The position numbers and the translations under genes are program-made. DNA of 64,000 nt from Phycisphaerales bacterium (GTDB taxonomy: Bacteria; Planctomycetota; Phycisphaerae; Sedimentisphaerales; Anaerohalosphaeraceae). How positions within the stretch are numbered: the first letter of the stretch is position 1; each line of letters starts with the position of its first letter. Shown piece after piece: positions 26,091 through 54,416 of this stretch. Location of the stretch: NCBI GenBank assembly GCA_011053245.1, contig DRGS01000110.1, forward strand, positions 12,619 through 76,618, written 5' to 3'. The notes under the pieces were generated by a model that saw nothing but the letters and a program-made list of their open reading frames with translations, searched no databases and was not told the origin of the DNA.

Positions 26091-27017
26091 TTAAATATTT
26101 TTAATGCGTTGTATATGAATCGTCATTATGTGACATGCTGATTTAAGCTTTAGATTCCAGCTACGGGATCTACACGATGCCTTGAACAATTTAAGGGCAT
26201 CGCTATATCGGCCCATTTTTTGCTTAAGCCTTCCTGTAATGTAACTTAAAAACAGTTCATGCTCTTTTCTGTCTTCACTATTCAAAAAGGAGATGTGTTT
26301 CTCGGACAAGGTTTTTTCTCGTACGAGCTGGTTTTCAGAAATCTCTGATATATTAGCGTCTCCCATCCAGTATTTACCCAGCGACATTGGGATATAGACG
26401 AATTTGTTAGTTACCCTGGAAATTTTTAACCAGAGATCAAAATCTTCAACCGCAAACAAAGATCGGTCTTCGTTTAATCCGCCAACGCTGTTGACGATCT
26501 CTTTTTTTACAACTACGCTTGAATTGCTCAAGGCATTTCCATTTGTCATCAGATCAACGAATGGAGAAGAGCTTAGCTTTCGAGTTCTTATTCTTTTTAA
26601 GGGCTTTTCGCTTTTCGATGTATAAATCTCAAGGTCATGATAAACAATGTCAGCTTTGGGAAAATAGTTCATTGCTATTTCTAATTTTTTCGGATACCAG
26701 CTGTCGTCAGAGTCAAGAAATGCCAAGTAGCATCCGGAGGCAATATTCACGCCCGCATTACGTGTGCGGGCAGGTCCGCCGTTGGTTTCTGATTTGACAA
26801 GTTTAAGGAAGCCGTCTTTGAAACACGAAAGCTCTTTTACAATAGAGACCGTATTGTCGGTGCTTTTGTCGTCAACAACAATGATCTCTAAAGGCTGAAG
26901 TGTTTGGGCTAAGACGCTGTCTATCGTTCTGCTAATATATTTGGATGCATTGTATGCAGGAATTATAACACTGCAATCGCAGCTGTGTTCTTTATTGATC
27001 TTTGTATCCAATTTCAA
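26091..27017 (-). CDS. GT2-family glycosyltransferase
   Basis: A 308-residue GT-A enzyme: '[21 protein letters not shown]' (about residues 15-35), '[14 protein letters not shown]', '[12 protein letters not shown]' and the DxD-type '[14 protein letters not shown]' (about 103-116). The best start is a TTG at 27017 that overlaps the stop of a UXS fragment just upstream and lacks a good ribosome site. Its original 5' end may have been altered when the UXS gene was broken. Its C-terminal ~80 residues are rich in Lys/Arg helices. Confidence 0.85.
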
Positions 27018-27289
27018 TTTCCAATATTAATATTTCCCGGCCTACCTTGGTCCATCAAACGTATCAGCCTTTCTACCGTGTCATCAACAAAACAAAATGA
27101 CCGTGTATGTTCACCGTCGCCGAAAATTGCAATATCCTCACCGCGTAGTGCCTGCAAAATAAAATTGCTTATAACCCGCCTGTCATCCGGGCGCATTCGC
27201 GGCCCGTACATATTAAAAATGCGGGCGATACGAATATCGACATTGTTTTCGCGATAATAATCGAACATCACCGTCTCGGCTAATCGTTA
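27014..27289 (-). pseudogene. Internal fragment of a UDP-glucuronate decarboxylase/epimerase gene
   Basis: The frame encodes only the middle of an extended SDR: '[13 protein letters not shown]', '[20 protein letters not shown]', '[20 protein letters not shown]' and 'GNINIGN'. It aligns with residues ~150-245 of the intact UXS encoded at 15800. The Rossmann N-terminus and the C-terminus are both absent: a stop codon lies just upstream (27290-27292) and one at 27014. It is too short to fold as an enzyme. It marks recombination or deletion between sugar cassettes. Confidence 0.75.
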
Positions 27290-27322: not shown

Positions 27323-29107
27323 TTAGGACAAGATGTCATCCCAGGCTTGTCGATTAAACGGTTCAGCAATCAAACTGCTGTCGAATTCGTCTGGGTTTTC
27401 ATCTGTTGAAAAATTTAAGGCATCCTTATCGCAAATTGTTTTTTGTTTGAAATCTGTACAAAGCAGAGGGTCCAGATCTATTCGCTCAGGCAGATATTTT
27501 AAAACATTTATTCCGTTGGCCATACATTCTAATGCAGCGGTCGTCCCGATATGCACAGCCCATCCGACTTGCTCCATCCACTGTTCCATTGAGCCGCTTA
27601 CAAAAGTAAAGTTGGACGGTAGTTCGGGGAGATGTTCTCTTATAACGGATTCAGGGGTGTCTGGATGAGGCTTTAGGAAAAATGTTTTATTTGAAGTTTC
27701 ATTTCGTAAAAGATAAAATAACAGGTCGAGCGAATAATCCAGAGAAACTGAGAGCAAAACCAGAACCTTTTCATCTCTATCGCTATTTTCAACATGCTCT
27801 TGAGATTCGGCTGATTTAGCATTTGAAGCATATCGAAGCGAACCGCCATTTTTAATATCGCAGGAAAACCCGGCTTTGTCCAGGATGGATTTTGCGTAGT
27901 GACCATTAGCCATAATAATATCAGGCTGGGGATGACTTTTGTTTTCGTCCTCACCAAGGAAGAAGTTTAAATAGAAAAACGGCACAGTTATAGTGTGGCA
28001 TGCAACTATCTTAGAATCGATCCCGGTTTGTCTCGCTGCGGTTATTAGCATTTTGTCCCATGTTTGATTTTCAAATGGATATGCTATAACTTTTGGGCTG
28101 ATATTATGCTTTTCAAAGATATTTAGATTAATTAGATAATTCAAATAAGTTGAAACGATGCCGCCTCTTTCCTTGAATATCTCTGCTTCAAGCAACGGAT
28201 TGAAATTCAAACCATTGACATCGCCTTGCAACTTACGCCATTTCAGAGTTAGTGATCTTTTGGCGGCTTTGAAAATGTCTGAGAATTTCGCAAAGAGCAT
28301 TATTGGAATGATCTCTTCTGATTTATGTGTTTTTTTCAATAAACGTACCGACAGGTTCGGCAGTGTAAAAGTAACAGTATTTAATTTCTTTTCTTTGCAA
28401 TAGCTCCTTAATGCTTTTAGATATGGGCCGGTGAATTCGGGCTGTTCGCCTTTAAACGAACGGTCTCCGATCCATGTGTAAAAAAGAATGTCGATCTTGT
28501 TTTTTAAAACTTCTGCCAATTGCATGCGATATTTCGCAGCGTATATTTTATTAAAAAGCCACAGCGAGGCTAAACGCAACGAAGCATAGATCATGCTGGC
28601 AACGAATAATATTCTATGCTTGGCATAGTTTTTTATGTGAGAACCCAGGGCTTTCGCAACAAAAACAGATTCGTCGTTAAAGCTGCTCGAGCATGCCTCG
28701 GCCAGCCATGCGTCTTCTACGATGATCAATCTTTTCTTAATGCCCTGTTCTATCCACGTTTGGACAAGCAATAAGAAAGAATAATTCAGGAAGAGGTCTG
28801 AAATCAAAGGGCTTTTATATGCAGCCATAGTTGCCCACCACATAGGTTTGTCTTGGTTTTGTCCTGTTTTAGAGACGAGATCAAGAAACGCCTGTTTGTT
28901 TTTTATCGACACGGACTGAAGTTCCTTGGCATAACAATGTCTGCTTGTCTGCCCCAGCTCCTTTGCAATTGATTCGCGAACAGAGGCATCTTTGCCCATA
29001 AATGACCACTGCCAACCTTCGTTAGATACTAGATCCTTAAAGGCGTTCCTTTTGCTTAGAGGAACGATGACAATGTTGTAATTTTTCAATGAGGTTTTGG
29101 GAGTCAT
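27323..29107 (-). CDS. Large surface-carbohydrate protein of unknown function (GT-B-like C-terminus)
   Basis: A 594-residue soluble protein, last in the minus-strand run that starts at the flippase. The C-terminal ~200 residues look like the donor half of a GT-B fold: 'KVLVLLSVSLDYSLDLLFYL', 'KTFFLKPHPDTPESVI' and 'AVHIGTTAALECMANGINVL', a pattern shared with CDP-glycerol/sialyl-type transferases. The N-terminal half is not recognised. It may belong to the 'surface carbohydrate biosynthesis protein' families known from spirochete O-antigen loci. A glycosyltransferase role, perhaps using the CMP-sugar made by the adjacent cytidylyltransferase, is inference. Confidence 0.6.
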   Translation of the reverse strand: MTPKTSLKNYNIVIVPLSKRNAFKDLVSNEGWQWSFMGKDASVRESIAKELGQTSRHCYAKELQSVSIKNKQAFLDLVSKTGQNQDKPMWWATMAAYKSPLISDLFLNYSFLLLVQTWIEQGIKKRLIIVEDAWLAEACSSSFNDESVFVAKALGSHIKNYAKHRILFVASMIYASLRLASLWLFNKIYAAKYRMQLAEVLKNKIDILFYTWIGDRSFKGEQPEFTGPYLKALRSYCKEKKLNTVTFTLPNLSVRLLKKTHKSEEIIPIMLFAKFSDIFKAAKRSLTLKWRKLQGDVNGLNFNPLLEAEIFKERGGIVSTYLNYLINLNIFEKHNISPKVIAYPFENQTWDKMLITAARQTGIDSKIVACHTITVPFFYLNFFLGEDENKSHPQPDIIMANGHYAKSILDKAGFSCDIKNGGSLRYASNAKSAESQEHVENSDRDEKVLVLLSVSLDYSLDLLFYLLRNETSNKTFFLKPHPDTPESVIREHLPELPSNFTFVSGSMEQWMEQVGWAVHIGTTAALECMANGINVLKYLPERIDLDPLLCTDFKQKTICDKDALNFSTDENPDEFDSSLIAEPFNRQAWDDILS

Positions 29108-29146: not shown

Positions 29147-29887
29147 TTATCGCAAATACTTCAGTTTTATTGTGTCTTTTTTCATCATCTCTTTTACCAG
29201 GGTCAAGTCTTGCGGCGTATCGACGGAAGTTGTGTATTCCTCTATCGGCACGCCCCTTATCTTAAACCCATGTTCGATAATTCGCAAATATTCGATATAT
29301 TCGACTTTTTCAAGAGGCGTAGCGGCCCATGATGCGAATTTCATGAGGAAGGGCTTGCGGAAAGCTACTATGCAATAGAGTTTATAGAGAAATTCCACTT
29401 TGCTTCTGTCAGCAGAGGGGATGTCAGACCGCGACATATATAAAATGTCATTGTTTAAATCCATAACCACCTTGCACTCACTCGTATCGTTAAACCGCGG
29501 CGTTTTGCAGACAAGTGTTGTAAACTGGATGTTATCGTCACGCTTAATGGTTCGCACCAGCTTGTCGATATCGCTCGGATTCAAAAGCGGTTCGTCTCCC
29601 TGAATATTCACAATTATGTCAGCATTCATGTTCTCAACAGTTTCGGCTACTCTATCGGTTCCGCACTGATGCTTTTCGGAAGTCATTACAGCTTTGCCGC
29701 CATGAGCGGTTACGGTATCGTATATTTCCTTGCTGTCAGTAGCTACAAAAACATTATCCAGCAGGGAGCACATCTGCACACGCTTCAATACGTGGACGAT
29801 CATCGGCAGCCCCTCAATGTCAACAAGAGCCTTGTTCGGAAGCCTGGTCGATTTTAAACGCGAAGGTATAACCCCTACTACTGTCAT
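29147..29887 (-). CDS. KdsB-like CMP-sugar (ulosonic acid) cytidylyltransferase
   Basis: A 246-residue nucleotidyltransferase. The CTP-binding start 'VVGVIPSRLKSTRLPNKAL' (about residues 3-21), 'VFVATDSKEIYD', 'CGTDRVAE' and 'ADIIVNIQGDEPLL' (about 89-102) match 3-deoxy-manno-octulosonate cytidylyltransferase (KdsB), which activates Kdo as CMP-Kdo. The body diverges from canonical KdsB after 'CIVAFRKPFLMKFASW', so the substrate may be a related 2-keto-3-deoxy sugar acid. Its ATG overlaps the radical SAM gene's stop by four bases, showing co-translation with the upstream module. Confidence 0.8.
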   Translation of the reverse strand: MTVVGVIPSRLKSTRLPNKALVDIEGLPMIVHVLKRVQMCSLLDNVFVATDSKEIYDTVTAHGGKAVMTSEKHQCGTDRVAETVENMNADIIVNIQGDEPLLNPSDIDKLVRTIKRDDNIQFTTLVCKTPRFNDTSECKVVMDLNNDILYMSRSDIPSADRSKVEFLYKLYCIVAFRKPFLMKFASWAATPLEKVEYIEYLRIIEHGFKIRGVPIEEYTTSVDTPQDLTLVKEMMKKDTIKLKYLR

Positions 29888-31434
29888 TTCGCAAAACCTT
29901 TCAATAATCTTTTCAATTTTTTGGCAAACTGCAAAACATAATAATCCATACTATATAAAAATCGGCTATGTTCAAGCCGCCATAATAATATGCTTTTAAT
30001 GACTTTGGCGCTGAGCCGCTCTCGATTGCCCGGCTTATTCAACTTAGTGGAACAAATATTAATATAATCGTTCATAGCTTCGGAATATTTTTCAAAGCCT
30101 GGCCAGGTCCATAACTCAGTATTGACGATCAGCGAGCCGTCGACATTTAAAGCACTCTCCCATTGTTCGATCGTGCTGGGAATCTTAACGTTATATTTCT
30201 CAACGATCCCATTAAACATTGGCGAACCCGGGTAATATCGAAATATAAAAGGCCCTGCTATGTTAGTGCGAATGTTTGCCCTTAGCAATTTTCCGCAAAG
30301 TTTGTATGTGGCCATCGTTTCATTCTTTTTTTCGTCCTCTAAGCCAACCATAAAAGAAAACCGCGGGGTGATGCTGAAATTTGAAAGCTCGTTGACAGCA
30401 CATAAAATGTCTTCGTATTTAATATCTTTCTTAATATAATCCAGCATTCTCTGTGAGCCGCTTTCGGCACCCATGGCAATAGAGGATATGCCAATTTCCT
30501 CCATTTCAGGCAGAAGCTTTCGGAACGAGTCTTTCTTGAAGTAAGAAACTCTTGTCCATATTCTGGCAGAAAATTTTAGTTTTTCTGCCTTTACAATTTG
30601 TATGAATTCTTTTAATCGGTTTTTGTTTATGCAGAAATCCTCGTCAAGAAATAAAAATGCATTTGCTCCGTAGTTGGTTTGCAGCCTTTTTATCTCGTCA
30701 ACAATTGCTCGGGCGGTTCGTGCTCGGTACCGCCTTTTTAAAATAACATTGATGCAAAAGGAGCATCGATAGCAACAGCCCAGGCCTGTAATAATGGGCA
30801 TTAACTGCAAGTCTTCGATGCCTTCGGTGTTTAATTCACTATTGTAAACAGTTGTAGCGGAAAGATATTTGTCTAAATCCAAGACTTCGAAGTCAAAATG
30901 GGGGACATTTTCAATCTCATCTAGCGATCGAGGGTCAGTGAGAGTGGTGTTGTTTTCGTCGTCGCAATATACAATTCCTTTAACATCTTTGAGCTCGACT
31001 TCGCCGCAAGTATAATTCATTATTTCTAAAACAGTCCTTGAGCCTTCATTGACAACTCCAATGTCAACATAAGGGTTGTCGACAGTCTGTTCCGGATACA
31101 AAGTTGGATGCACCCCGCCAAAAACAACGAGCGTGTCGGGGTGTTTTTCTTTTATCTTTTTGGCAAGCCTATAGCCCATTGTCACCTGGGAAGACATTAC
31201 AGAGAGTCCGACGAAGGCCGTTTTGTCGGATACCCGTTCTAAAACTTGTTCGTCGTAATCGCGATCAAGTGCGCCATCTACAAACGAAACAGTAATACCG
31301 TTCTTTTTTAAAACGGATGCGATCAACATAACTCCGGTTGCGGGATAAATGGAACCGGGGTTGTCATATTTGTAATCATGAGCTGGTGGAAGATTTACAA
31401 GAACGACTTCCTTGTTATGATATGAATTTTGCAT
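29884..31434 (-). CDS. B12-binding-domain radical SAM protein
   Basis: A 516-residue class B-like radical SAM enzyme. The N-terminal ~170 residues form a cobalamin-binding Rossmann domain ('LVNLPPAHDYKYDNPG', 'VVFGGVHPTLYPEQTVDN'). The radical SAM core follows, with its [4Fe-4S] CxxxCxxC in 'GLGCCYRCSFCIN' (about residues 220-232) and 'FLDEDFCINKNR'. Such enzymes do methylations and other radical reactions on unreactive carbons. The substrate here is unknown; the module suggests a sugar acid or its precursor. It is 17 bases downstream of the HAD gene and overlaps the KdsB-like gene. Confidence 0.85.
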   Translation of the reverse strand: MQNSYHNKEVVLVNLPPAHDYKYDNPGSIYPATGVMLIASVLKKNGITVSFVDGALDRDYDEQVLERVSDKTAFVGLSVMSSQVTMGYRLAKKIKEKHPDTLVVFGGVHPTLYPEQTVDNPYVDIGVVNEGSRTVLEIMNYTCGEVELKDVKGIVYCDDENNTTLTDPRSLDEIENVPHFDFEVLDLDKYLSATTVYNSELNTEGIEDLQLMPIITGLGCCYRCSFCINVILKRRYRARTARAIVDEIKRLQTNYGANAFLFLDEDFCINKNRLKEFIQIVKAEKLKFSARIWTRVSYFKKDSFRKLLPEMEEIGISSIAMGAESGSQRMLDYIKKDIKYEDILCAVNELSNFSITPRFSFMVGLEDEKKNETMATYKLCGKLLRANIRTNIAGPFIFRYYPGSPMFNGIVEKYNVKIPSTIEQWESALNVDGSLIVNTELWTWPGFEKYSEAMNDYINICSTKLNKPGNRERLSAKVIKSILLWRLEHSRFLYSMDYYVLQFAKKLKRLLKGFAK

Positions 31435-31451
31435 AAAACCAATAGACCCTT

Positions 31452-32210
31452 TTAATCAATTTTTATATTTGCGACCGACTGAACCACATATGGCGTGATC
31501 TTTAAAAGCTCGTCTTGCGATGTTAATCCGGTGCAAACACCGATTGACGCCTTGAAGCCGGCGTTAATGCCCGTAAGGACATCTGTTTTTGCATCCCCGA
31601 TCATAACAGCCTTTTTTGGTGAGATGTTCAGAGCATTTACTATAAGTTGCAGCATATCCGGCGATGGCTTTGATTTGTCCACCTTATCGGCGCCGACAAC
31701 AAAATCGAATAAGCCATTTATATTTAAGAAATCCATTGCAAGCTGAGCTCTTTGGGTTTTGTCGGTTGTGGCAATAGCAATTTTACAGTTGTTTTTTTTT
31801 ATCTGAGTTAATAATTCGATGGCGCCGTCAAGAGGCGTGATAAATTTGTCGAGCAGAGACAGCGATGCCTCGTCAACTTCCTGGAATATTTTAAAGCACA
31901 CATCGTAGACATTTTCACATTGAAGTTTATTGAGATAATCCTCTGCTGCTTTTTGAACTACCTCTCTGGGCAATAAGCCGACGGGGCCTTCCGGCCTTAT
32001 ACATTTGTTTTTAAGGTCGATGCCCATTTCGTACATCAAGCTATCTTCGTGTTCATCTAGTGATAGACCATAGAAAGAGCACAGCCGTTGCGCCCTCAAG
32101 CCAATCATGTTGCTCCAGTAATTGTATAGATCTATGACGGTGCCGTCTTTGTCAAAGACAAATAACTCAATGTCTTCAATTGCATCATCATTAACGTAAA
32201 CGGTTACCAT
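31452..32210 (-). CDS. HAD-superfamily phosphatase
   Basis: A 252-residue HAD hydrolase with motif I 'FVFDKDGTVID' (about residues 17-27; both catalytic Asps present), motif II 'IATTDKT', and motifs III/IV 'KPSPDML' and 'VMIGDAKTDVLTG'. An alpha-helical cap sits between motifs I and II, as in phosphoglycolate phosphatases. By analogy with KdsC it may dephosphorylate a sugar-acid phosphate before cytidylylation. Its start overlaps the Fe-S protein gene by seven bases. Confidence 0.85.
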   Translation of the reverse strand: MVTVYVNDDAIEDIELFVFDKDGTVIDLYNYWSNMIGLRAQRLCSFYGLSLDEHEDSLMYEMGIDLKNKCIRPEGPVGLLPREVVQKAAEDYLNKLQCENVYDVCFKIFQEVDEASLSLLDKFITPLDGAIELLTQIKKNNCKIAIATTDKTQRAQLAMDFLNINGLFDFVVGADKVDKSKPSPDMLQLIVNALNISPKKAVMIGDAKTDVLTGINAGFKASIGVCTGLTSQDELLKITPYVVQSVANIKID

Positions 32211-33202
32211 ATCTGTTCACCGATATTAGCAATAATCAGCTTTTCTGCGATGCCAACAGAATTCAATATCTTGTCATCGTTATCCATGAAATCATCATCT
32301 CCAATAACGTTCTTAACAAGATTTCTGGCAAAGGTGCCGATTGAAACGCCGTTATATTCAACCCCGCACATGTCGGCAAGCTTTGTTGTCAGGCTGTTGG
32401 TTCCTCCGGAAAGCAATATTTTAGTATCGAGCTTTCTTTTCACAATAATATCTGCGATCGCAACCGCTTGCAAAGTGGTATTAAAGTCGTCACATCCTCC
32501 ACTCATAGGCACGCCATCGGCTTGAATGATCAATCTATCCTGAGATATTTCTTTAGCTTTTATGATCCGTTCTTCCAGTTTGAAATCAGATAAATGCAGC
32601 CGATCAAGGCACATGCTTACATAGTTATCAGTGATAATTTCGTTTATCATTGCCCATTCAGAAAATATGGATTCCGAATCGGGGACAGCGGCATGAAGTT
32701 CAAACTGTTCAGCACCGCTTTCCTTGCATTCCAGCAACAAAGCCTTAAGGTCTTTGTCGTTATGGTAAAATTTAATTGCGCCATGATCGCAAGCTGATTC
32801 GCAATTACCACAGCCGATACATTTTTCAGTTATAACATCGGAATCTTTTATCGCATCAGTTGGGCATTTATCAATACATGCACCGCAACGGATACATTTA
32901 TCAGTAATGGCTGCTTTGCGCACATGCGGATCGCCCCGCATGCCAATGCTTACATTAATAAATGGTCTGATTTCAATTTTTTTGTCAATATTAACAGCGT
33001 AATCAAAGGCCTTGTCGATGCCGGCGACGGCACTTTTAACAACCTCGATATTAGCGGAAACATCGAAACATTTCGCGCCTGCAAGGGTGTAGACAAAAAC
33101 TAGTTTTTTTACCTGTTCCGCATCTTCATTGCCGGCTCCGCAAACAAGCTTGAAGAGTTTTTTTTGCTTCATCAAATGCGACATAGTTTCAAATCGAGTC
33201 AT
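32204..33202 (-). CDS. LdpA-like protein with two 4Fe-4S clusters
   Basis: About 332 residues from the ATG at 33202, one base after the upstream stop; a start at 33232 is possible but has no ribosome site. The N-terminus 'LFKLVCGAGNEDAEQVKKL' plus 'TLAGAKCFDVSANIEVVKSA' resembles cyanobacterial LdpA, an Fe-S protein that senses redox state for the circadian clock. Two ferredoxin motifs follow, 'CIRCGACIDKCP' and 'CIGCGNCESACD' (about residues 105-145), and then an LdpA_C-like TIM-barrel-type half. Here it lies inside a sugar module, so a redox or radical-supply role for the radical SAM partner is more likely than clock function. This is inference. Confidence 0.65.
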   Translation of the reverse strand: MTRFETMSHLMKQKKLFKLVCGAGNEDAEQVKKLVFVYTLAGAKCFDVSANIEVVKSAVAGIDKAFDYAVNIDKKIEIRPFINVSIGMRGDPHVRKAAITDKCIRCGACIDKCPTDAIKDSDVITEKCIGCGNCESACDHGAIKFYHNDKDLKALLLECKESGAEQFELHAAVPDSESIFSEWAMINEIITDNYVSMCLDRLHLSDFKLEERIIKAKEISQDRLIIQADGVPMSGGCDDFNTTLQAVAIADIIVKRKLDTKILLSGGTNSLTTKLADMCGVEYNGVSIGTFARNLVKNVIGDDDFMDNDDKILNSVGIAEKLIIANIGEQIW

Positions 33203-33203
33203 A

Positions 33204-34964
33204 TTATTTGATCCAGTTGTAAACACTATCATAAAAATAGTTGTGGTTAGTGGGCGTTATAATCCGAATGTTGTCTTTGTTATGTTTTGTCAAGTAGGTG
33301 TTGATGCTGTTAAGCAGGGATTCGTTCCAGTTGTGTTTTCTGATCAACGATTCAAGAGTTTCGGCTTCGTCGGATTCTTTATAGAAATGAACATTGTCAG
33401 AGAGGAAGTTTTCCTTGCTTTTATATCCATCCATCCCTGCGACGAAGATTCTTTCGGCTCCTAGAATGATCGCTTCAGCGATCATGAGTATTGAAATAGT
33501 TCGGCAGTTAGAAGTTATAATGTTGTCTTTTATTTCAAAGGTACCGGAGACCTTGCTTAAGTGTACGATCCGCTCATAATCCCTATCGGTGTACTCCCGT
33601 ATGAAATCATCATCAAAGCCGCTTGAAAGCAAAAGTGTCGACCCCTCGTCAACCTGATCGACATACGAAATAAACCTTTTTTTGTTGCTGAACGCGTGAT
33701 AATCAGGCTTAAACAAACCTCCCAAATAATTTGCCCCCATAACTATAGGATTGTGCTTCACTATAAAGTCGTCTATTTCTTTTTTATACTCGCTCAAAGT
33801 TGGTCCGTTAGCAAGGATCAAAAAGTCTTTTCCGGCATGTCTATCTTTACAGTTAACCGGATGGTTTGCAAGCAGCGTCTGTAATTCGGTTTCATCATGC
33901 TGCGTATCATCCAGCTCTTTTACGGTGCTGACAAAACCGCTGTTTATAATTTTGTCCATAATATTCTTGTTGAACCCGATCGGTTCTAATTCTTTGACCA
34001 GTTCCAAAACTTTTATCATATCATCGACATTGTATTCATGAGCGGCAACAAGTTGCTGGGCATAAGTTGGATGAACTTCAAAGGTTCCTGAAAGCATGTA
34101 TGGCAGCATGTAACCCCACTGGAGGTCATGTTTCAACGCCATGAAATAGCGATCGATCAGATCAAGCGCAGGTATAGAATTATATTGTTTGTTGTTCAAT
34201 GTCTTTTCGAGATATATTAACAATACCTCCAACGGAAGATTGCCGGCTCCCCTTCCAATTCCATAAATAGTACCATCAACAATATCAATCCCGCTATTAA
34301 TTGCCTCAAGTGTATTTGCAAAAGCAAGCTGTAAACTATTATGAGCGTGAAAGCCGATCTTTTTATGCGTCTGTTTCAGTTGGCCTATGTACCGTTTTAT
34401 ATCTTCCGGAAAAAGCGATCCGTAGCTGTCTGCAAAATAGACATAATCCACAGATGACTGAGCGAGCGGTTCAATGATATCGGAAATTTCCTTTTCGCTG
34501 TATGTGGCAATACCCATCAGCTGGACAGAAGTCTTGTAGCCCTTTTCTTTAATTTTTTCACACAGATCGATCGTATCAAACACCTTGTCTTTATGACATG
34601 CGACTCTGTACATTTTGACAAGACTTTCAGCGGCATCCGGTATGATGCTAAGATCAGCGGCTTTGTAATCTATCATTAATGCTATTTTTATATGGGAAGT
34701 TCCCTCTGTCAGGCTATCAATGATTTTCTCCGGCGTGGAGTACCATATACCTCTATCAGCCCTTGGTGGATTTCTAAATCCAAGCTCAATATAATCAACA
34801 CCGGTTTTTGAAATGTTACGACAAAGTTCTTTGACCATTTTTTTGTCGAAATTCCAGTTATTCAAATAGCCGCCATCTCTGATGGTGCAGTCCAATATCT
34901 CAAATTTAGGCAATTTCTTACTATTCACCGGCACGGGCCTTTCTTTTTTCATTAAATGTTTCAT
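33204..34964 (-). CDS. DRE-TIM aldolase fused to a DUF115/GT42-like domain
   Basis: About 586 residues from the ATG at 34964 (AAAGG site); a GTG at 34928 that overlaps the upstream stop by eight bases is an alternative start. The N-terminal ~330 residues are an HMG-CoA lyase/4-hydroxy-2-oxovalerate aldolase-type TIM barrel: 'FEILDCTIRDGGYLNNWNF' (metal-binding D and DG), 'IELGFRNPP', 'GFHAHNSLQLAFANTLEAI' and 'IYGIGRGAGNLPLEVLL'. The last ~200 residues have 'FLILANGPTLSEYKKE', 'VMGANYLGGLFKPDYHAFSN' and 'LGAERIFVAGMDGY', as in DUF115/MAF and some sialyltransferase-like folds. This joins a carbon-carbon lyase or aldolase with a sugar-acid transferase-like domain. Confidence 0.75.
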   Translation of the reverse strand: MKHLMKKERPVPVNSKKLPKFEILDCTIRDGGYLNNWNFDKKMVKELCRNISKTGVDYIELGFRNPPRADRGIWYSTPEKIIDSLTEGTSHIKIALMIDYKAADLSIIPDAAESLVKMYRVACHKDKVFDTIDLCEKIKEKGYKTSVQLMGIATYSEKEISDIIEPLAQSSVDYVYFADSYGSLFPEDIKRYIGQLKQTHKKIGFHAHNSLQLAFANTLEAINSGIDIVDGTIYGIGRGAGNLPLEVLLIYLEKTLNNKQYNSIPALDLIDRYFMALKHDLQWGYMLPYMLSGTFEVHPTYAQQLVAAHEYNVDDMIKVLELVKELEPIGFNKNIMDKIINSGFVSTVKELDDTQHDETELQTLLANHPVNCKDRHAGKDFLILANGPTLSEYKKEIDDFIVKHNPIVMGANYLGGLFKPDYHAFSNKKRFISYVDQVDEGSTLLLSSGFDDDFIREYTDRDYERIVHLSKVSGTFEIKDNIITSNCRTISILMIAEAIILGAERIFVAGMDGYKSKENFLSDNVHFYKESDEAETLESLIRKHNWNESLLNSINTYLTKHNKDNIRIITPTNHNYFYDSVYNWIK

Positions 34965-35706
34965 ATAAGCCTTTGTAGGTCTCGCGAAGTATGGCTGAGT
35001 CAACCGAATAGGTTATGTATTGCACGCCGCAATCGAGCAAAATATCCAAATATTTCAAATCTCTCGCAAACGAACCGCAAGCCAAATCTTTGTCTTTGCA
35101 TATCTTTACACATTTTTTGATATTATCAATAACCTGGATATCTTCAACGTCTCCTGGCTTCCCCAGAGATTGCGACAGATCGTATGGTCCTATGAATATT
35201 ACATCAATGCCCTCAACCTCAGCAATACCGGGTAAATTTTCAACCCCCTCTAATCCCTCAACGTTAATAACAACCATTGTATTTTCATTTGACCTTTTGG
35301 TGTGCTCATTCGCTTGCAGCCCATACTTACCTGCCCGGGTAAATGGTGAAAACCCTCTGTCCCCCAGAGGGTGATACTTTGAGTTTTTAACAACTTGCTC
35401 GGCTTGGGCCTTAGTGGACACATGTGGAACCTGAACTCCGTGGGCACCAATATCAAGAGCCCTCAAAGTCTTACAAGAAGAATCGTCTGAAACACGGATG
35501 ATCGCTGCCGTGCCGGATAGCTCAGCGGCTCTGATAAGATTTTCAGCGCTTTCCATATTAATGGGCCCGTGCTCAGCATCGATAACAAGAAAATCTATAC
35601 CGCTACACCCAATAACATTGACCAAAGAAGATGAAGCAATGCTGTTCCATGTTCCAAACACCGTTTCACCGTTTTTCAATCTCTCTTTGAGAGTAGGTTT
35701 GTGCAT
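34921..35706 (-). CDS. HpcH/HpaI-family aldolase
   Basis: About 261 residues from the ATG at 35706, which has a GAAGGA site; an upstream TTG at 35721 is less likely. The fold signature is clear: 'GTWNSIASSSLVNVIGCSG', 'FLVIDAEHGPINMESAENLI' (about residues 35-54), 'DIGAHGVQVPHVSTKAQAEQ', 'YHPLGDRGFSPFTRAG' and 'VIFIGPYDLSQSLGKPG'. Family members are metal-dependent aldolases that join pyruvate to an aldehyde or cleave 2-keto-3-deoxy acids. Next to a KdsB-like gene it could make the 2-keto-3-deoxy sugar acid itself. It heads the six-gene module and overlaps the aldolase fusion. Confidence 0.85.
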   Translation of the reverse strand: MHKPTLKERLKNGETVFGTWNSIASSSLVNVIGCSGIDFLVIDAEHGPINMESAENLIRAAELSGTAAIIRVSDDSSCKTLRALDIGAHGVQVPHVSTKAQAEQVVKNSKYHPLGDRGFSPFTRAGKYGLQANEHTKRSNENTMVVINVEGLEGVENLPGIAEVEGIDVIFIGPYDLSQSLGKPGDVEDIQVIDNIKKCVKICKDKDLACGSFARDLKYLDILLDCGVQYITYSVDSAILRETYKGLYETFNEKRKARAGE

Positions 35707-35775: not shown

Positions 35776-37635
35776 TTAATGCTGGCATGTTCCTGTCGCT
35801 TTTTGTAAAAACCGTTCATAATCACTATAACAGAATCGTTTTATATATGTATCAATAAAAGATCTATCATGTGTGTCTGTGCCATTTAGGCTGCCATCTT
35901 TAAAAAAATCAGTTAGCTGCATCTTTAGTTCATCCACGGATTCACTATAAACTACCCTCCGTTTGATGAGGTCGAGAGCATCTTGTCTTAGCAGTGCCGA
36001 TTCCTGATTGAGCATAAGGAAGATCGGTCCGGTATATTGCGATAATACTTGCAAAAGCGAAGTTGATTGATTATCAAGTATGATAAATTTAGGATTATTT
36101 GACAAAGCCGTGTCAGTTGAAACATCTGTAAATGAAAGATATTTAGTTTTTTTGCTCTCAATATACCGTTGTACCACGTAATGAGGGCTATGTGATCTTA
36201 GCCCCTTAGTTACCACTTTGCCGCCGACACCTGAACCACAAAAATCAATTATCTGTTTAATTGCTTTGAACTGCAGATCCGCTTGCCATTTAACACAGTT
36301 TTTAATATAAAACAGCCCGACGATACCTGGCAGAAAAAGACCTTCCTGAGACGGCGGTTCTTCGGTCTTTAAACTTCCCGAAGCCTGCTGAGCATACATG
36401 ACATTTGATCCAACATTCGCGCATTCAACATGACAATTTTTTTCAAATTTTGTAACGTCTTTCGTACAGTCCTTCCCGAACGATAAAAAGTAATCTGCGT
36501 TTTTATAATCTGTAATATAATGTTGAAAGAAATCGGTGTATCCATAAACGCCGCCATGTTGCCACACTGCGACCTTGCCGCCATTGTCTTTTGTTTTCTT
36601 TATCAAGAAATAGGAATGTAAGTACACCGGAGGCAAGCTGAAAATCGTCAGGTACCTCTTTCCCTTTTTCATGCATTTTTGCCAAAAGAGATCTATGTAA
36701 CCTTTCATCCATTTGGCATCAGTCAAATACTGAGAGACAGTTTCCCGAAAAAGATTGGCGAAATCAAACTCGACATCATGCAAATTAATTTTATAAGGAT
36801 TAATTGAAACTTCATAGTTATTATAGTCGTGTTGTTTAAAAAGGGATTTAGCGATCAAAAAGCAAACAGATTTCCGCCAGGAATGCAAGAAGGGCATCCG
36901 GTTTCCATAAAACACTTGCGGAGCCGTCTTGCGGCCGGGAGACCTATAAGCTTTATAACAATTGATCACGTTGTCATATGACGGGTTGATAAAAATACAA
37001 TTGTCATTTTTGTTGTTTAAAGACAAGAGTTTCCAGCGGACAAATTGTATCAGATATCGCACTGATGTTTTTAAGCGTTGCGATTGTTCGAAGAAGATCG
37101 TCCTGGGCTTATCGTAATGCCCCTGATGCTCAATAGTGCTGACTTTTACGTTTTTGCTTTCAAAGAATTTTTCGATCAAATGCGAAAACGAAGCTATGTT
37201 TATTAAAAGCCCGCCTTGGGTTACATATTTATTTCTCTTTATTATAACGACCTCTTCAACGGCATACTGATCTAGAAAATCACTACAAAACGAAAGCGCT
37301 CTGTTTACGGATATCCAGATGCACGCCCAAATATATTCTTGAGGAAAGGCTTCTTCGTCTTTGTCGACGAGCCCGTTTGTCAATAATAGTTGTTTTAAAA
37401 ACTTTTGCGAATCCTCATAAATCTCTCTGGCAGCAAAAAACTCTTCGTTCTCGTTGATCACCTTAGGGGCATAATAAGCCTCTTCGGGCTGGGTGAAAAT
37501 CACTTGCATCATTGCGGTGAAATCAATGGGAAGGAACAAAGATTTATCGTCAACGGTAATCCCATGACGATCTTTGAAATCCTCAAGGTCGTTCTGGTCC
37601 ATCAAGATATATGCTTTCTTACGATCAGTGTTCAT
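35776..37635 (-). CDS. Putative surface-glycan transferase, unknown family
   Basis: A 619-residue soluble protein between the flippase and the aldolase module. Text such as 'GKVAVWQHGGVYGYTDFF' (about residues 363-380), 'YFLSFGKDCTKDVTKFEKN' and 'KFIILDNQSTSLLQVLSQYT' resembles the LIC12162-type transferases of spirochete O-antigen loci, in which a His-Gly-Gly loop and a late Asp/Ser pair lie in a GT-B-like donor domain. The first ~200 residues are unrecognised. A role as glycosyltransferase is inferred from context and overall architecture, like the 594-residue protein at 27323. Confidence 0.55.
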   Translation of the reverse strand: MNTDRKKAYILMDQNDLEDFKDRHGITVDDKSLFLPIDFTAMMQVIFTQPEEAYYAPKVINENEEFFAAREIYEDSQKFLKQLLLTNGLVDKDEEAFPQEYIWACIWISVNRALSFCSDFLDQYAVEEVVIIKRNKYVTQGGLLINIASFSHLIEKFFESKNVKVSTIEHQGHYDKPRTIFFEQSQRLKTSVRYLIQFVRWKLLSLNNKNDNCIFINPSYDNVINCYKAYRSPGRKTAPQVFYGNRMPFLHSWRKSVCFLIAKSLFKQHDYNNYEVSINPYKINLHDVEFDFANLFRETVSQYLTDAKWMKGYIDLFWQKCMKKGKRYLTIFSLPPVYLHSYFLIKKTKDNGGKVAVWQHGGVYGYTDFFQHYITDYKNADYFLSFGKDCTKDVTKFEKNCHVECANVGSNVMYAQQASGSLKTEEPPSQEGLFLPGIVGLFYIKNCVKWQADLQFKAIKQIIDFCGSGVGGKVVTKGLRSHSPHYVVQRYIESKKTKYLSFTDVSTDTALSNNPKFIILDNQSTSLLQVLSQYTGPIFLMLNQESALLRQDALDLIKRRVVYSESVDELKMQLTDFFKDGSLNGTDTHDRSFIDTYIKRFCYSDYERFLQKATGTCQH

Positions 37636-37658: not shown

Positions 37659-39155
37659 TTAGGCTTGTTTCATCTTGTTGAATATCTCTATAACCGCTGA
37701 TTGCAAAACCTTATCGTTTTTCAGTAACAAGCCATAATATATGACACAGCTAATTACGCTGATCACTATCAAAGATAGCGGAGAGGCATTGAAAATTAAT
37801 TTAGCCAAAGCTGTTACGATAATTATAGGCAGGCATAATACAAAACATTTTGACAGCATGCCAAAGACGGTGGACGATGATATGCCAATAAACCTAAACA
37901 TCAATAAGCCAAATCCTAAAGTCGCCAAACCGTTTAAGAAAGAAAACAAACCTAACGCCAAATAAACATTGTCGGCTAAGCCGCCAATTACAATTGACAC
38001 ACTGCTTATTACAATAATTACAATATGAAGAATAAGAGTGATTTCCTGTTTTTCTAATATATTCGTTAGAATTCTGGCAGGGGTTATTGCAAAATCAATA
38101 AATATTCTAAAACTAAGGATCTGGGCAAACACGCCGGCATCGGACCAGTTTGCTCCGAAAACAAAAGCAAAAAAGTCTTCCCCAGCAACAGCAAGCAATA
38201 AAAACGGCAACATCCCCAGATAAACCATACGTTTGAACAGGTTTGTAACCAGTGAAGCATTTGTTCCGTCATGTTTTGCCCTTGCGCTTTTTTGGTAAAA
38301 AACTTCTCCAATAGAGCCTGCGATAAAAGTCATAGGAAGACTTAGCACGGCAAGCCCCAGTCCATAGTAACCAGCAGCGGTTTTGGTGAAATAAAATGAC
38401 AATGAAAACACTATGATCGTAGTTGCAAGCCTGCTGATCAAGCCAACCCAAAGATTATACATAGGGAATTTGCGGTATCTTTTGATGCCTTGCACCATAC
38501 CATGCCATCGGATGCTGTGTTTAAACAACTCAGCGTTTTTTTGCCAGATTTGTGCTCCGAGAACACTGCTCATCGTAAGTGATCCGGCGAGTCTCCCTGC
38601 GATTAAACTGCCAGAGGTTGCAAAGCCGCAAAGTCCGGCACCAATAAGCACACCTTTATTTACCGCAGCATCTGATATTCTCGATATAGCAATACGACTG
38701 AAACTTCTATTGCGCACGTTCCAGGAACGCAGTGAGAGGTACAGGCCGTGCGCAAGCACATTTACAGGGATCACCCAAAGATATGCTTCTAACTCAGGAG
38801 CTTTCAGCCATTCTAAAAGAGGCCCCGATCCCCAATAAATAAATAGTATTGAAAGCAAGGTTATCAGTACGGTAAACATAAGACTGACGAATAACATATT
38901 CGCCGCCACTTCATCTTTTTGGGGTAAAACTATTGAACTGCTGTAGCCTAGACCGGCAAATACAGCGATTGGCATTACGATAGAAGCAAATATCTGAAAT
39001 GTGCCATAGACATCAGGTAGGTATAATCTGGTTATCACAGGCATTAAAATTATACCAAGAATCTGGGTACATAATGGCGCCGAAGCCATTCTAAGCACGT
39101 CTTTTGCAAATGTATTTTCGTGTGACACTGATTTCAGTTTTGTATTTTCTACCAT
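37659..39155 (-). CDS. Wzx-like polysaccharide flippase (MATE/MOP superfamily)
   Basis: A 498-residue integral membrane protein with about 12-14 hydrophobic segments. The N-terminus 'VLRMASAPLCTQILGIILMP' and 'RLYLPDVYGTFQIFASIVMP' is typical of oligosaccharide flippases (Polysacc_synt), as is 'AGYYGLGLAVLSLPMTFIAG'. It should flip the undecaprenyl-linked repeat unit across the inner membrane for Wzy-type polymerisation. It starts the tightly packed minus-strand run down to 27323. Confidence 0.88.
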   Translation of the reverse strand: MVENTKLKSVSHENTFAKDVLRMASAPLCTQILGIILMPVITRLYLPDVYGTFQIFASIVMPIAVFAGLGYSSSIVLPQKDEVAANMLFVSLMFTVLITLLSILFIYWGSGPLLEWLKAPELEAYLWVIPVNVLAHGLYLSLRSWNVRNRSFSRIAISRISDAAVNKGVLIGAGLCGFATSGSLIAGRLAGSLTMSSVLGAQIWQKNAELFKHSIRWHGMVQGIKRYRKFPMYNLWVGLISRLATTIIVFSLSFYFTKTAAGYYGLGLAVLSLPMTFIAGSIGEVFYQKSARAKHDGTNASLVTNLFKRMVYLGMLPFLLLAVAGEDFFAFVFGANWSDAGVFAQILSFRIFIDFAITPARILTNILEKQEITLILHIVIIVISSVSIVIGGLADNVYLALGLFSFLNGLATLGFGLLMFRFIGISSSTVFGMLSKCFVLCLPIIIVTALAKLIFNASPLSLIVISVISCVIYYGLLLKNDKVLQSAVIEIFNKMKQA

Positions 39156-41536: not shown

Positions 41537-42235
41537 TTATAACAACTTCTTGTTTTTGCAGACCTCAAATATTAACTCTGCGGTTTCCCAGTCTTCGGCT
41601 GTGTCAATATCCTGCACCAGATATCGAGGCAGAATCAACGGTAGCGATTTTTCGGAAAAACATGTTTTGTTTTCGAGAAACTTTTCGCTGTCAAGCCAAT
41701 AAAGCTGTCCTGCATCGTGGTAAACGTCCTCGAAATCTTGTGACCTTTTAAGTTCGTTCTCGGGCCAAAGCATTTTAATGAGACCATCTTCTGTGATCCT
41801 GAGACCCCTGAAAATACAGGACTCAAATGTTGCTGCGGTAAACACTGATGATGCTCCGCTTTGAGATAATAGCGAAAAACCATCTTTTATAGACTTGCTC
41901 GTTACAAAAGGAGCTGTTGCATAGATACAGCAGCAATATTTCACTTTCTCACCATGATCGTTTAGCCAGTTGATCGCGTGTTCCAATACCGGAGCGGTCG
42001 GGGTGGTATCGTCTGAAAGTGACATAGGTCGCATAAAGGGAACTTCGGCGCCTGCTCTTATCGCAACATCGGCTATTTCTTCCGAGTCAGTGCTAACGAT
42101 AACTTTTGTAAAAAGACCGCTTTCAATCGCTGCTTTTATCGAATAATGGATTATTGGCTTACCGGCAAAGTTTTTGATGTTTTTGCCAGGTATACGTTTG
42201 CTTCCACCTCGCGCTGGAATTATTGCAACGTTCAT
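41537..42235 (-). CDS. pseF: Pseudaminic acid cytidylyltransferase
   Basis: A 232-residue CMP-nonulosonate synthetase. 'AIIPARGGSKRIPGKNIKNF' (about residues 4-23) binds CTP. 'VSTDSEEIADVA', 'LSDDTTPTAPVLEHAI', and especially 'RSQDFEDVYHDAGQLYWL' near residue 165 are the PseF form of this last motif. It makes CMP-pseudaminic acid, the donor for transferases. Its ATG overlaps the pseI stop by four bases, and it is the last gene of the pse operon. Confidence 0.92.
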   Translation of the reverse strand: MNVAIIPARGGSKRIPGKNIKNFAGKPIIHYSIKAAIESGLFTKVIVSTDSEEIADVAIRAGAEVPFMRPMSLSDDTTPTAPVLEHAINWLNDHGEKVKYCCCIYATAPFVTSKSIKDGFSLLSQSGASSVFTAATFESCIFRGLRITEDGLIKMLWPENELKRSQDFEDVYHDAGQLYWLDSEKFLENKTCFSEKSLPLILPRYLVQDIDTAEDWETAELIFEVCKNKKLL

Positions 42236-43281
42236 TCTCCGATTCCTCCTTCCAAATGATCTGGCTTAAGAGGTGTACCCATAGGCAGGTCTTTTAGAAA
42301 ACGTTTCCCCACTATATTTTTCTTGTGTTTTGGTTTAAGCCCCTGACCGGGACGAATAGAGCGTATATTTTCATCGGTTACAATATCTCCGGCTTTAACA
42401 TCTGTGACAACAAAAAGCGATCGCCTGAAAATACAACTTTCCTCTTCGCTCTCGGTCAATCCGTAATGGATTTCTCCAATAGCTTTTTCGGCAATTCTTA
42501 CATCATTTACAAGCTGTTTTAATTCATCGGGCTCAATCGAAAAGAAACTGTCCGGTGTTTGCTTTTCTCTGGATAAAGTAAAGTGTTTTTCGATCACACA
42601 TGCTCCGAAAGCAATCGAACTTACCGAAGCTGCGATTCCCAGACTGTGGTCGGATAAACCTACAGGACAACCAAATCTTTCGCGCATATCTGGTATCGTT
42701 GCGAGATTCATTTCTTCTGGCTTGGCTGGATAACCGGAAACGCACTTCAAAAGTATTACTTCTTTTGCTCCCGCAGTTTTAGCCGTATCAACCGCCTCCT
42801 GTATCTCTTCAAGACTGCCCATCCCCGTAGATATTATCAAAGGCTTGCCGGTTTTAGACGCATATTCAATTAGCGGAAGGTCAACTAATTCAAAAGACGC
42901 TATCTTATGCGCGGCAATTCCCAGTTTCTCCAGCACATCAACACTTGTTTTGTCGAATGCTGTACACAAAAACAGCACCCCAAGATCGTCAGCGATCTTC
43001 TTTAACTCAGGAAACCATTCCCACGGCGTATACGCTTTTTTATATAGCTCGTATAGAGTTTGTCCACCCCATTCGGGATGATCGATCATGAAGTATTTAT
43101 TGTCAACATCTATTGTCATCGTCTCAGGTGTATACGCTTGGAATTTAACGGCATCAGCGCCGCAGTCCTTAGCGGCTTTTACCATTTCTACGGCCCTGTC
43201 AAAATCTTGTCCGTGATTTGCCGATACCTCGGCAATAATAAAAACGGAACCGCCACCTATTGTTTTATTAGAGATTTTCAT
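42232..43281 (-). CDS. pseI: Pseudaminic acid synthase
   Basis: About 349 residues from the ATG at 43281, which overlaps the upstream stop as ATGA; an ATG two codons earlier is also possible. It is a NeuB-family synthase that condenses the 6-deoxy-altrose derivative with phosphoenolpyruvate. It shows 'VFIIAEVSANHGQDFDRAVE', 'ADAVKFQAYTPETMT', 'KIASFELVDLPLIEY', 'VGLSDHSLG' and 'VIEKHFTLSRE', and the C-terminal SAF domain with 'FRRSLFVVTDVKAGDIVT'. The pattern 'TIDVDNKYFMI' is typical of PseI rather than NeuB or LegI. Confidence 0.93.
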   Translation of the reverse strand: MKISNKTIGGGSVFIIAEVSANHGQDFDRAVEMVKAAKDCGADAVKFQAYTPETMTIDVDNKYFMIDHPEWGGQTLYELYKKAYTPWEWFPELKKIADDLGVLFLCTAFDKTSVDVLEKLGIAAHKIASFELVDLPLIEYASKTGKPLIISTGMGSLEEIQEAVDTAKTAGAKEVILLKCVSGYPAKPEEMNLATIPDMRERFGCPVGLSDHSLGIAASVSSIAFGACVIEKHFTLSREKQTPDSFFSIEPDELKQLVNDVRIAEKAIGEIHYGLTESEEESCIFRRSLFVVTDVKAGDIVTDENIRSIRPGQGLKPKHKKNIVGKRFLKDLPMGTPLKPDHLEGGIGE

Positions 43282-43940
43282 TTGCATTCTTCTTTAAAAA
43301 TCTTCAGTATATACTTGTTGCCTTTGTAATAAAAAAAAGCAGGAAAATCTTCATTGCTTACCGTCCGCAAAAGATTAAACTGCTCTAATAGACTTTTATT
43401 CATATCCAATTCGCTGTCACTCGGTGTTCTTTTGGGGTAATAAGTTTCCTCGCCTTTTTGTGATTTCGGCACTATACTTTCACGTCCGCCCAAAAACTTC
43501 TCGCACATCTGTATGGTTTTCATGGCTTGCTTTTCACGTATCTTGTCGTGCAGTTCGTTCCCATCCAGTTCAATATAGTCCTTGATATATATATCACCGC
43601 TGTCAACACCGGTGGCTGCTTCGAAAAGAACTATCGGTATTCGGTTTTTGCCCTCGATGACCTGCCAGAAAAGTGGCGACCACCCTTTACCCCTGGGCAG
43701 GTCGCTTTCGTGAACTACTAAATTATATTTATGCTTGTTTAGAAATTGTTCCTCTATGAGTTTGAAATAACTCAGTATAAAAACCACCTGATACGATTCG
43801 TCTATCTGGCTATGCTCTAAAAAAAACTGAGCCGCAAAACCTTTCTTTGAAAGACGCCCAGCAAGATCTTTACCGTATGGCACAAACCAACTGGCTTCTG
43901 AAGTAAGAACTGCTATCTTCAAGTTATCTATTTCAGGCAT
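43278..43940 (-). CDS. Formyltransferase-fold protein of the pse operon (second copy)
   Basis: About 220 residues from an ATG at 43940; a GTG at 43949 is an alternative start. The central motif 'VVHESDLPRGKGWSPLFW' (about residues 73-90) matches the catalytic 'NxHxSxLPxxRGxxP' of formyl-THF-dependent formyltransferases, with the His kept and the Asn replaced by Val. The later Asp is present in 'GVDSGDIY'. A C-terminal tail with 'YYPKRTPSDSELDM' and 'FPAFFYYKGNKYILK' parallels the end of sugar N-formyltransferases. It probably N-formylates an amino-sugar intermediate. It sits between the PIG-L deacetylase and pseI with overlapping ends. Confidence 0.7.
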   Translation of the reverse strand: MPEIDNLKIAVLTSEASWFVPYGKDLAGRLSKKGFAAQFFLEHSQIDESYQVVFILSYFKLIEEQFLNKHKYNLVVHESDLPRGKGWSPLFWQVIEGKNRIPIVLFEAATGVDSGDIYIKDYIELDGNELHDKIREKQAMKTIQMCEKFLGGRESIVPKSQKGEETYYPKRTPSDSELDMNKSLLEQFNLLRTVSNEDFPAFFYYKGNKYILKIFKEECK

Positions 43941-44602
43941 CTGACACACTTAAAAGCCTCAGCATATTTCAATCCCGTCTTGACTCCCCAATTCTTTGCA
44001 TTCAGCTCGACTGCATCAAGAGATCGCGGATGCGGAAATTCTCTCATCTCGGATTTATAATGCTCCAACGCTTGTAGTTTTGTCTTGATCGTTTCCGATA
44101 CATCAAAAAACGTATCTGGTGAAAAAGTCAAAGGATACTTCCATTCCGTCGACGACATTACCTCAAACGAATATATTTCCCGAACACTTTCGCCAACCAT
44201 CGGACGGGTCGCCGTCAGCACTGCTTCATATGTCAAACGATGATCTATATTTAAGTCATTACAATAATGCGTCAAGACAACGTCGGGTTTAACCTTTCCT
44301 TTTATCTCGTCTACTACCTTTACAATATCAAGCAATGCAACAGTATCAAAACTGTTATCAGGAAAATCAAAACCAAAAACTTCCTTGGCACCAACTGCTT
44401 TATTCGCTGCTTCCATGCAGGCATTCAATGCTTCGATCTGTTTTTTTGCTTCATGGCAGTCATGCCCGCGTGCGGCAACACCTCTGCCAAGGATCAGCGT
44501 ATAAACCTGGTCGCCTTGCTGAGCAAACTTCGCCATCGTACCGCCACAGCCGAGGATTTCGTCATCGGGGTGAGCTGCTACAACCAATATTTTATTTCCC
44601 AT
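43928..44602 (-). CDS. PIG-L/LmbE-family N-deacetylase
   Basis: A 224-residue zinc-dependent deacetylase: 'KILVVAAHPDDEILGCGGTM' (about residues 4-23) carries the metal-binding AHPDDE motif, and 'LNIDHRLTYEAVLTATRP' (about 116-133) carries the distal His. The family removes N-acetyl groups from GlcNAc-type substrates. Here it is translationally coupled on both sides to formyltransferase-like genes inside the pse operon. That suggests it frees an amine, perhaps the 2-N-acetyl derived from GlcNAc, for re-acylation by formyl. It is not part of the classical six-step pse pathway. Confidence 0.85.
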   Translation of the reverse strand: MGNKILVVAAHPDDEILGCGGTMAKFAQQGDQVYTLILGRGVAARGHDCHEAKKQIEALNACMEAANKAVGAKEVFGFDFPDNSFDTVALLDIVKVVDEIKGKVKPDVVLTHYCNDLNIDHRLTYEAVLTATRPMVGESVREIYSFEVMSSTEWKYPLTFSPDTFFDVSETIKTKLQALEHYKSEMREFPHPRSLDAVELNAKNWGVKTGLKYAEAFKCVRCLK

Positions 44603-46276: not shown

Positions 46277-46303
46277 AAATATAGCATATGAAATAGTCAG
46301 CTA

Positions 46304-46954: not shown

Positions 46955-46964
46955 GAAAGCCCTC

Positions 46965-54343: not shown

Positions 54344-54416
<73 letters not shown>

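Follow-up and report, generated by a model that had tools for sequence, protein, structure and literature searches.

The 64,000-nucleotide stretch analysed here (the window), from a Phycisphaerales bacterium, carries at 29147–35706 on the minus strand a unit of six genes that probably makes a cytidine monophosphate (CMP)-activated 3-deoxy-2-ulosonic acid other than 3-deoxy-D-manno-octulosonic acid (Kdo), by an aldolase-based route independent of KdsA, for a surface polysaccharide. Comparison with other genomes shows that the gene set is a conserved unit, in which the DRE-TIM aldolase family adjoins enzymes predicted to act on 2-oxo acids. The six genes, with domain calls from Pfam and NCBIfam scans, are as follows.

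34921..35706, minus strand: HpcH/HpaI-type pyruvate aldolase (PF03328, 3.9e-32; best PDB match 4tv5)
33204..34964, minus strand: DRE-TIM pyruvate-type aldolase (N-terminal; PF00682, 1.4e-29) with a DUF115/sialyltransferase-like domain (C-terminal), 586 residues
32204..33202, minus strand: LdpA-like protein, predicted to fold as a TIM barrel into which a 2x[4Fe-4S] ferredoxin segment is inserted (Fer4, 4.7e-15; LdpA_C, 1.4e-9)
31452..32210, minus strand: HAD-family phosphatase (PF00702, 2.6e-27; DKDGT at residue 20, GDAKTD at 205)
29884..31434, minus strand: B12-binding radical S-adenosylmethionine (SAM) protein, an optional member (PF04055, 3.6e-19; PF02310, 4e-17; CxxxCxxC from residue 220)
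29147..29887, minus strand: KdsB-like cytidine triphosphate (CTP):ulosonate cytidylyltransferase with diverged sugar-side motifs (CTP_transf_3, 6.8e-52; TIGR00466; PRK13368)

The genes follow one another in this order. The HpcH frame (ATG at 35706, end 34921) overlaps the DRE-TIM gene (start 34964) by 44 bases, a single base separates the end of the latter (33204) from the LdpA-like start (33202), the LdpA-like and HAD genes overlap by 7 bases, the HAD and radical SAM genes lie 17 bases apart and the radical SAM and KdsB-like genes overlap by 4; these figures depend on the starts chosen in the analysis, that of the LdpA-like gene being taken from an alignment. An earlier note on this DNA had described six nearly contiguous genes on one strand, which the open frames, the domain calls and recurrence elsewhere confirm.

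Recurrence of the gene set in other genomes

A search with the aldolase scored 2941 homologues, not all of them shown to be fusions; the 120 listed carry generic names. The loci compared below, by tblastn, protein clustering and gene-order analysis, are the best 80 of 440 genome loci obtained with a profile built from 19 aldolase fusions, and a gene is called near the DRE-TIM aldolase if it lies at most four genes away on the same strand, unless stated otherwise. CMP-transferase genes are the commonest of the partners counted (50 of 80 loci; KdsB-cluster genes alone, 28), with a HAD gene of any of three clusters near the aldolase at 42 loci, an LdpA-like gene at 22, at positions −2 to +1 only, and an HpcH gene at 16. 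CMP-transferase genes occupy 38 of the 151 places at ±1 versus 7 of the 379 at ±5 to ±8, and GT2 and SDR genes of the same loci show no such peak at ±1. Neighbour counts are lower bounds where the picking of open reading frames (ORFs) failed: at L006 a spurious short ORF moves KdsB to +5, and at L019 a KdsB gene that tblastn places right after the aldolase is masked by a longer ORF on the wrong strand.

Because these 80 loci had been picked via the aldolase, we made an independent search of whole genomes with an LdpA profile, which detected it in two phylum samples, in 2 of 117 and 4 of 74 genomes respectively. Of the six positive genomes, three were new, and in each of the three the DRE-TIM, LdpA-like, HAD, HpcH and KdsB genes adjoin. 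One, L129, has the full six-gene order of the window, radical SAM included, together with a relative of the TIGR04326-like gene downstream; in the pieces fetched from the other two (L130 and L131), neither a radical SAM nor a TIGR04326-like gene was found. The LdpA frame of L131 (genome G139), beside the other module genes, has one in-frame TAA. All 10 of the LdpA loci with a cluster-1 KdsB have, as the window does, a TIGR04326-type gene directly after the KdsB-like gene; with L129 added, such a gene follows in 11 of the 13 loci outside the window that have both LdpA and KdsB. A chance arrangement is unlikely because the gene set recurs in other genomes, and the objection anticipated in the earlier note, that the families might not co-occur elsewhere, is excluded.

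Aldolases with an adjoining CMP-transferase come from loci of several phyla, including gut Clostridia and Bacteroidales, and the cultured Leisingera caerulea has the aldolase, a gene named '3-deoxy-manno-octulosonate cytidylyltransferase' and a HAD gene consecutively. A quick tree built from the aldolase domain, with the partial sequences L003, L028 and L037 included, requires 11 changes of the LdpA label. Well-supported branches force at least 5 of these, so the LdpA association was gained or lost repeatedly. A search of plasmids for LdpA found no match. No paper describing this gene set was found among open-licence PMC papers, judged by titles and abstract openings.

At L046 and L050 (Gastranaerophilales), an LdpA-like gene stands beside an aldolase without DUF115. 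Genes for HAD, HpcH and CMP-transferase were not found there, and the downstream genes are shared with the fuller loci L031 and L035; this may be a reduced form, perhaps showing the core pair. At the gut loci L052, L064, L067, L068, L070 and L075, a common gene cluster accompanies the aldolase, and the single member scanned (from L052) matches the alpha-2,8-polysialyltransferase family PF07388 at 2.1e-9. A PfkB kinase cluster lies within two genes of the aldolase at 7 of 80 loci (L013, L014, L017, L018, L028, L051 and L071), where the kinase could replace or feed a phosphorylated step; nearest to the L013 member, the only one scanned, is an aldolase/sugar-kinase fusion model, below its cut-off.

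The cytidylyltransferase and ordinary Kdo

In the Kdo pathway, an aldol-type step by KdsA is joined to a HAD phosphatase, KdsC, and to KdsB. Pfam and NCBIfam scans found no KdsA-type Kdo-8-phosphate synthase among the genes of the unit. Its last gene product passes the cut-offs of both TIGR00466, the kdsB equivalog (170.7 bits; cut-off 155.2), and PRK13368 (277.1 bits), which would suit a rival explanation that we consider unlikely: that the unit offers another way to make ordinary Kdo or one of its stereoisomers, in which the aldolase joins pyruvate to arabinose 5-phosphate, the HAD protein takes the KdsC role and CMP-Kdo goes to O-antigen or capsule. The Leisingera row of aldolase, KdsB and HAD would be enough for such a route. 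Several lines of evidence count against it.

First, the sugar-side motifs differ. KLYCIVAF and IEYLR in the window protein replace canonical KHxGxYxF/Y and LEQLR, whose KHxGxY and LEQLR residues we take to contact Kdo. In an alignment, both motifs are present in 8 of 8 canonical KdsBs of module genomes versus 0 of 11 module KdsBs, in which the stretch equivalent to the first reads KM(C/S)FIVPF in 10 and KQCGLYCF in 1. An extract of PMC3149649 places Kdo binding in the C-terminal domain of KdsB, where the diverged motifs lie. The roles that it assigns to K19 and the catalytic Asp pair can be transferred by alignment to the window protein, which keeps K19 (NKAL at 18) and the aspartates of QGDEP (96) and VDTP (222).

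Second, a KdsA over cut-off is present in 8 of 12 genomes that were picked from the 80 loci, and each of these 8 also has, apart from the module, a KdsB of 187–258 bits; the 11 module KdsBs found across the 12 genomes score 150–176 bits. A module KdsB is seen in 7 of the 8 genomes with the canonical pair, the contig of L005 ending early. The other 4, all drafts, have a module KdsB and no KdsA over cut-off. Only matches over cut-off were counted because the KdsA model also scores below it elsewhere: it matches 9 of 14 control genomes, 4 over cut-off and 5 below.

Third, a route to ordinary Kdo leaves no role for the HpcH, LdpA-like and radical SAM proteins. The possibility that the enzyme activates ordinary Kdo, named in the earlier note as fatal to its proposal, is thus made less likely by the motif loss and the separate KdsA and KdsB, with the cut-off score still reading KdsB.

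The aldolases, their partners and the proposed pathway

The DRE-TIM domain carries the R-D after strand 1 and the HxH that place it with DRE-TIM/HMGL-like enzymes, and its nearest named PDB relatives handle 4-hydroxy-2-oxo acids; 4-hydroxy-2-oxopentanoate is the substrate of DmpG-type aldolases. The HpcH protein best matches a 2-dehydro-3-deoxyglucarate aldolase (4tv5, 6.8e-40) and contains EHG, IRV, GLEGV and GPYDLS, presumably the catalytic stretches.

The best argument that the DRE-TIM aldolase makes a 2-oxo acid is that two unrelated partners, the CMP-transferase and a thiamine diphosphate (ThDP) enzyme, both belong to classes that use 2-oxo acids. In 10 of the 80 loci there is, somewhere in the locus, a match to a ThDP enzyme of the acetolactate-synthase type, and none of the 10 has a CMP-transferase within five genes, versus 52 of the 70 others (Fisher P = 8e-6, uncorrected for kinship), and the ThDP label changes 5 times on the aldolase tree. 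RfbH or RfbG occurs at 4 of the 10 ThDP loci and at 7 of the other 70; RfbF at L033 and RfbH at L036 exceed their NCBIfam cut-offs, as do RfbH, RfbG and RfbF at L038. A Desulfobaculum plasmid also carries RfbH and transketolase-type genes with a relative of the aldolase domain.

A second rival, to which we give little credence, is that what the aldolases, Fe–S protein and HAD protein make, a 2-oxo acid or an aldehyde, is not the sugar that receives CMP but, for example, a side chain on another sugar, and that the KdsB-like protein serves elsewhere. Four loci (L031, L035, L036 and L038, the last with its three Rfb proteins) do combine LdpA-like, HAD, DRE-TIM and ThDP genes with no CMP-transferase within five genes, against which stand the place of the KdsB-like gene inside the unit, the TIGR04326-like gene behind it at 11 of 13 loci and the prevalence of CMP-transferases among the partners counted. 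Both branches could be accommodated by a broader scheme, tentative and open to more doubt than the CMP-ulosonate pathway itself, in which the DRE-TIM aldolase, often with LdpA-like, HAD and HpcH proteins, forms a modular 2-oxo-acid cassette that, in different bacteria, feeds one of two unrelated activation chemistries, with the LdpA-like Fe–S TIM-barrel enzyme having a new function: CMP transfer, giving a new class of CMP-ulosonic acids, or ThDP-dependent grafting onto a cytidine diphosphate (CDP)-3,6-dideoxy-4-ketohexose, the window's ulosonate being C-methylated or rearranged by a radical SAM protein co-inherited with its HpcH subtype.

The radical SAM protein combines B12-binding and radical SAM domains with CxxxCxxC, as in B12-dependent radical SAM methylases; none of the NCBIfam models listed for it reached cut-off. 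The earlier note had made it a core step, which does not fit its presence near the aldolase at only 10 of 80 loci. Relatives occur in L129 (61%), L002 (58%), L022 (45%) and L016 (40%), L015 has a weaker one (27%) beside HpcH and L001 has a different B12 radical SAM protein between HpcH and DRE-TIM. On a tree of 20 HpcH proteins, which omits the HpcH fragments of L009 and L041, all 6 members of a window-type clade (window, L001, L002, L015, L022 and L129; support 95/95) are radical-SAM-plus, versus 1 of the other 14, with labels assigned by the analyst and L007 and L032, whose radical SAM matches lie about 3 kb off, scored minus. The aldolases of L015 and L022, at 45 and 47% to that of the window, are no nearer to it than those of minus loci. 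Because the gene goes with an HpcH subtype, the radical SAM protein would act in the pathway as an option.

The LdpA-like protein matches the NCBIfam LdpA model over residues 20–306 (9.7e-42, 143.3 bits, below the cut-off of 450). Its predicted structure (pLDDT 89.7) has ten strands, eight assigned to a barrel, and the best among the structural matches listed for it are TIM barrels; we predict a TIM barrel with an inserted ferredoxin. Its alignment shows invariant polar residues, and we considered that the barrel might bind flavin mononucleotide (FMN) or a substrate phosphate at the SGGTNS and GVSIGTFAR stretches. The role of mere electron donor to the radical SAM protein, given to it in the earlier note, is unlikely and was set aside because no radical SAM gene lies within four genes at 17 of the 22 LdpA loci, some of them cut by contig ends, and the predicted fold is that of a TIM barrel.

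In the C-terminal half of the fusion, Pfam made no DUF115 (PF01973) call on the window protein; many of the 120 relatives listed have the domain in their precomputed annotation, and 74 of 81 family members are matched by a C-terminal-domain profile to which some of them also contributed. Against PDB profiles, the nine best rows are sialyltransferases (E 2.4e-4 to 5.2e-3, weak matches over about 65 positions), seven of them named alpha-2,3/2,8-sialyltransferase and probably variants of one enzyme. The structure-match rows for the fusion cover residues 6–359 only, and the lack of sialyltransferases among them is uninformative. An HFY histidine, presumably equivalent to the catalytic histidine of sialyltransferases, is present in 19 of 19 near relatives but is not general in the family.

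In the pathway that we favour, the DRE-TIM aldolase would join pyruvate to an aldehyde, giving a 4-hydroxy-2-oxo (2-keto-3-deoxy) acid, and the HpcH, LdpA-like and HAD proteins would build and dephosphorylate an unusual aldehyde or chain, with HpcH adding a second pyruvate by aldol reaction and the LdpA-like protein carrying out redox or elimination chemistry on a phosphorylated intermediate. Where present, the radical SAM protein would add a modification, most likely C-methylation. The KdsB-like enzyme would form the CMP-sugar, whose transfer to the growing glycan may fall to the TIGR04326-like protein or to the sialyltransferase/Maf-like part of the aldolase fusion. The earlier note's proposal is thus partly upheld: the comparative evidence agrees with an aldolase that substitutes for KdsA, a HAD phosphatase and a KdsB-like enzyme with altered motifs leading to a CMP-2-keto-3-deoxy acid, and the core radical SAM step and Fe–S donor drop out. 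The TIGR04326-like transferase, the sialyltransferase-like domain and the ThDP-coupled branch were not in it.

A number of points weigh against this pathway. What the unit makes, in which order and by which activities is all inference, and the pathway does not account for the need for two aldolases. By the NCBI cut-off, the window cytidylyltransferase would be named KdsB; three of the four genomes with no KdsA over cut-off have weaker matches (107–123 bits), and draft assemblies could hide a KdsA. Some of the 50 CMP-transferase loci may owe their count to neighbouring pseudaminic-acid sets, because CMP-transferase cluster 3 contains PseF-type proteins, including the window's own PseF, and 14 of 80 loci have neither CMP-transferase nor ThDP nor Rfb genes. 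Within the ThDP branch, 6 of 10 loci lack both RfbH and RfbG, and 3 of the 11 loci with either also have a CMP-transferase. The transferase part is weakened because DUF115 is kept in ThDP loci lacking a CMP-transferase and the HFY histidine is not kept through the family. Finally, one plasmid region that looks catabolic contains a relative of the aldolase, and characterised HpcH/HpaI and DmpG-type enzymes are mostly catabolic, as would suit catabolic or housekeeping aldolases that merely adjoin polysaccharide genes, a reading made very improbable by the repeated adjacency in distantly related genomes, the peak at ±1 and the surface-polysaccharide cluster in the window.

Surroundings of the unit and comparison with known systems

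The surface-polysaccharide cluster around the unit also encodes a flippase (37659–39155), an initiating sugar transferase and a GT9 transferase. Its immediate neighbours are as follows.

27323..29107, minus strand: TIGR04326-related surface-carbohydrate protein, candidate CMP-sugar transferase (TIGR04326, 2.5e-20, 72.4 bits, below the cut-off of 250)
35776..37635, minus strand: protein weakly like LIC12162 transferases, probably outside the unit (TIGR04331, 2.1e-4, 20.1 bits; cut-off 225)

For the second of these, tblastn at E 1e-4 gave no counterpart among the 80 loci. A short frame at 27014–27271 resembles the end of an NDP-sugar epimerase/decarboxylase and is perhaps a gene remnant. At 41537–49110 lies a pseudaminic-acid-type set (PseB, PseC, a methylase, a PseG-like protein, PseI and PseF) with two formyltransferase-like genes and a BshB-type deacetylase; no PseH was found among the nine proteins scanned there, and the set points to an N-formylated pseudaminic acid. 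At L001, too, genes of the PseG and PseI clusters sit upstream of the module. The NanM-type sugar O-methyltransferase at 39283–41376 matches a DUF115-like profile in its N-terminal part (residues 182–253, E 1.1e-7). An ABC exporter at 7267–9483 has a weak PDZ match (6.3e-5) N-terminal to its transporter part, a HipA-like C-terminal domain protein (872–1843) and a GmrSD-type restriction protein (56264–58060) flank the polysaccharide region, and a tRNA-Phe gene lies at 54344–54416.

To our knowledge, the described routes to CMP-ulosonates (Kdo, sialic, pseudaminic and legionaminic acids) all use phosphoenolpyruvate-dependent synthases. A pyruvate-aldolase route, if true, would be a second way to CMP-activated ulosonic acids, would predict acidic coat sugars, so far unsought, in several phyla and would give LdpA-like Fe–S proteins and aldolase–DUF115 fusions a testable enzymatic role.

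The unit has in common with the Kdo pathway (KdsD, KdsA, KdsC and KdsB) aldol-type chain extension, a phosphatase, CTP activation and a homologous cytidylyltransferase; it differs in having pyruvate-type aldolases for KdsA, diverged sugar-side motifs and extra Fe–S and radical SAM proteins, and the canonical KdsA and KdsB are present separately. The aldolase domain shares fold and motifs with 4-hydroxy-2-oxovalerate aldolases (1nvm) and with 3dxi (the N-terminal domain of BVU_2661), from which it differs in RDGGY for RDGSH and in the added C-terminal DUF115 domain. Cyanobacterial LdpA, a circadian-clock protein, and the LdpA-like protein match the same family model, whereas the window gene adjoins an aldolase and a phosphatase and scores far below cut-off. 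By profile, the C-terminal domain matches sialyltransferases, which we take to be of the GT42 type, and so invites comparison with these and with Maf (PF01973); unlike them, it is fused to an aldolase, and the match is weak and short. In an extract of PMC11339370, the pfam01973 domain of Maf resembles Cst-II, and the donors of CbMaf are Neu5Ac and Kdo. Finally, ErwE favours 4-hydroxy-2-oxo acids as donors, according to an extract of PMC12247030. One branch of the aldolase family sits with a ThDP enzyme, as in YerE/ErwE-type branched-sugar pathways (yersiniose and erwiniose), whereas the window has a CMP-transferase instead and, at the thresholds used, no relative of the ThDP enzyme or RfbH.

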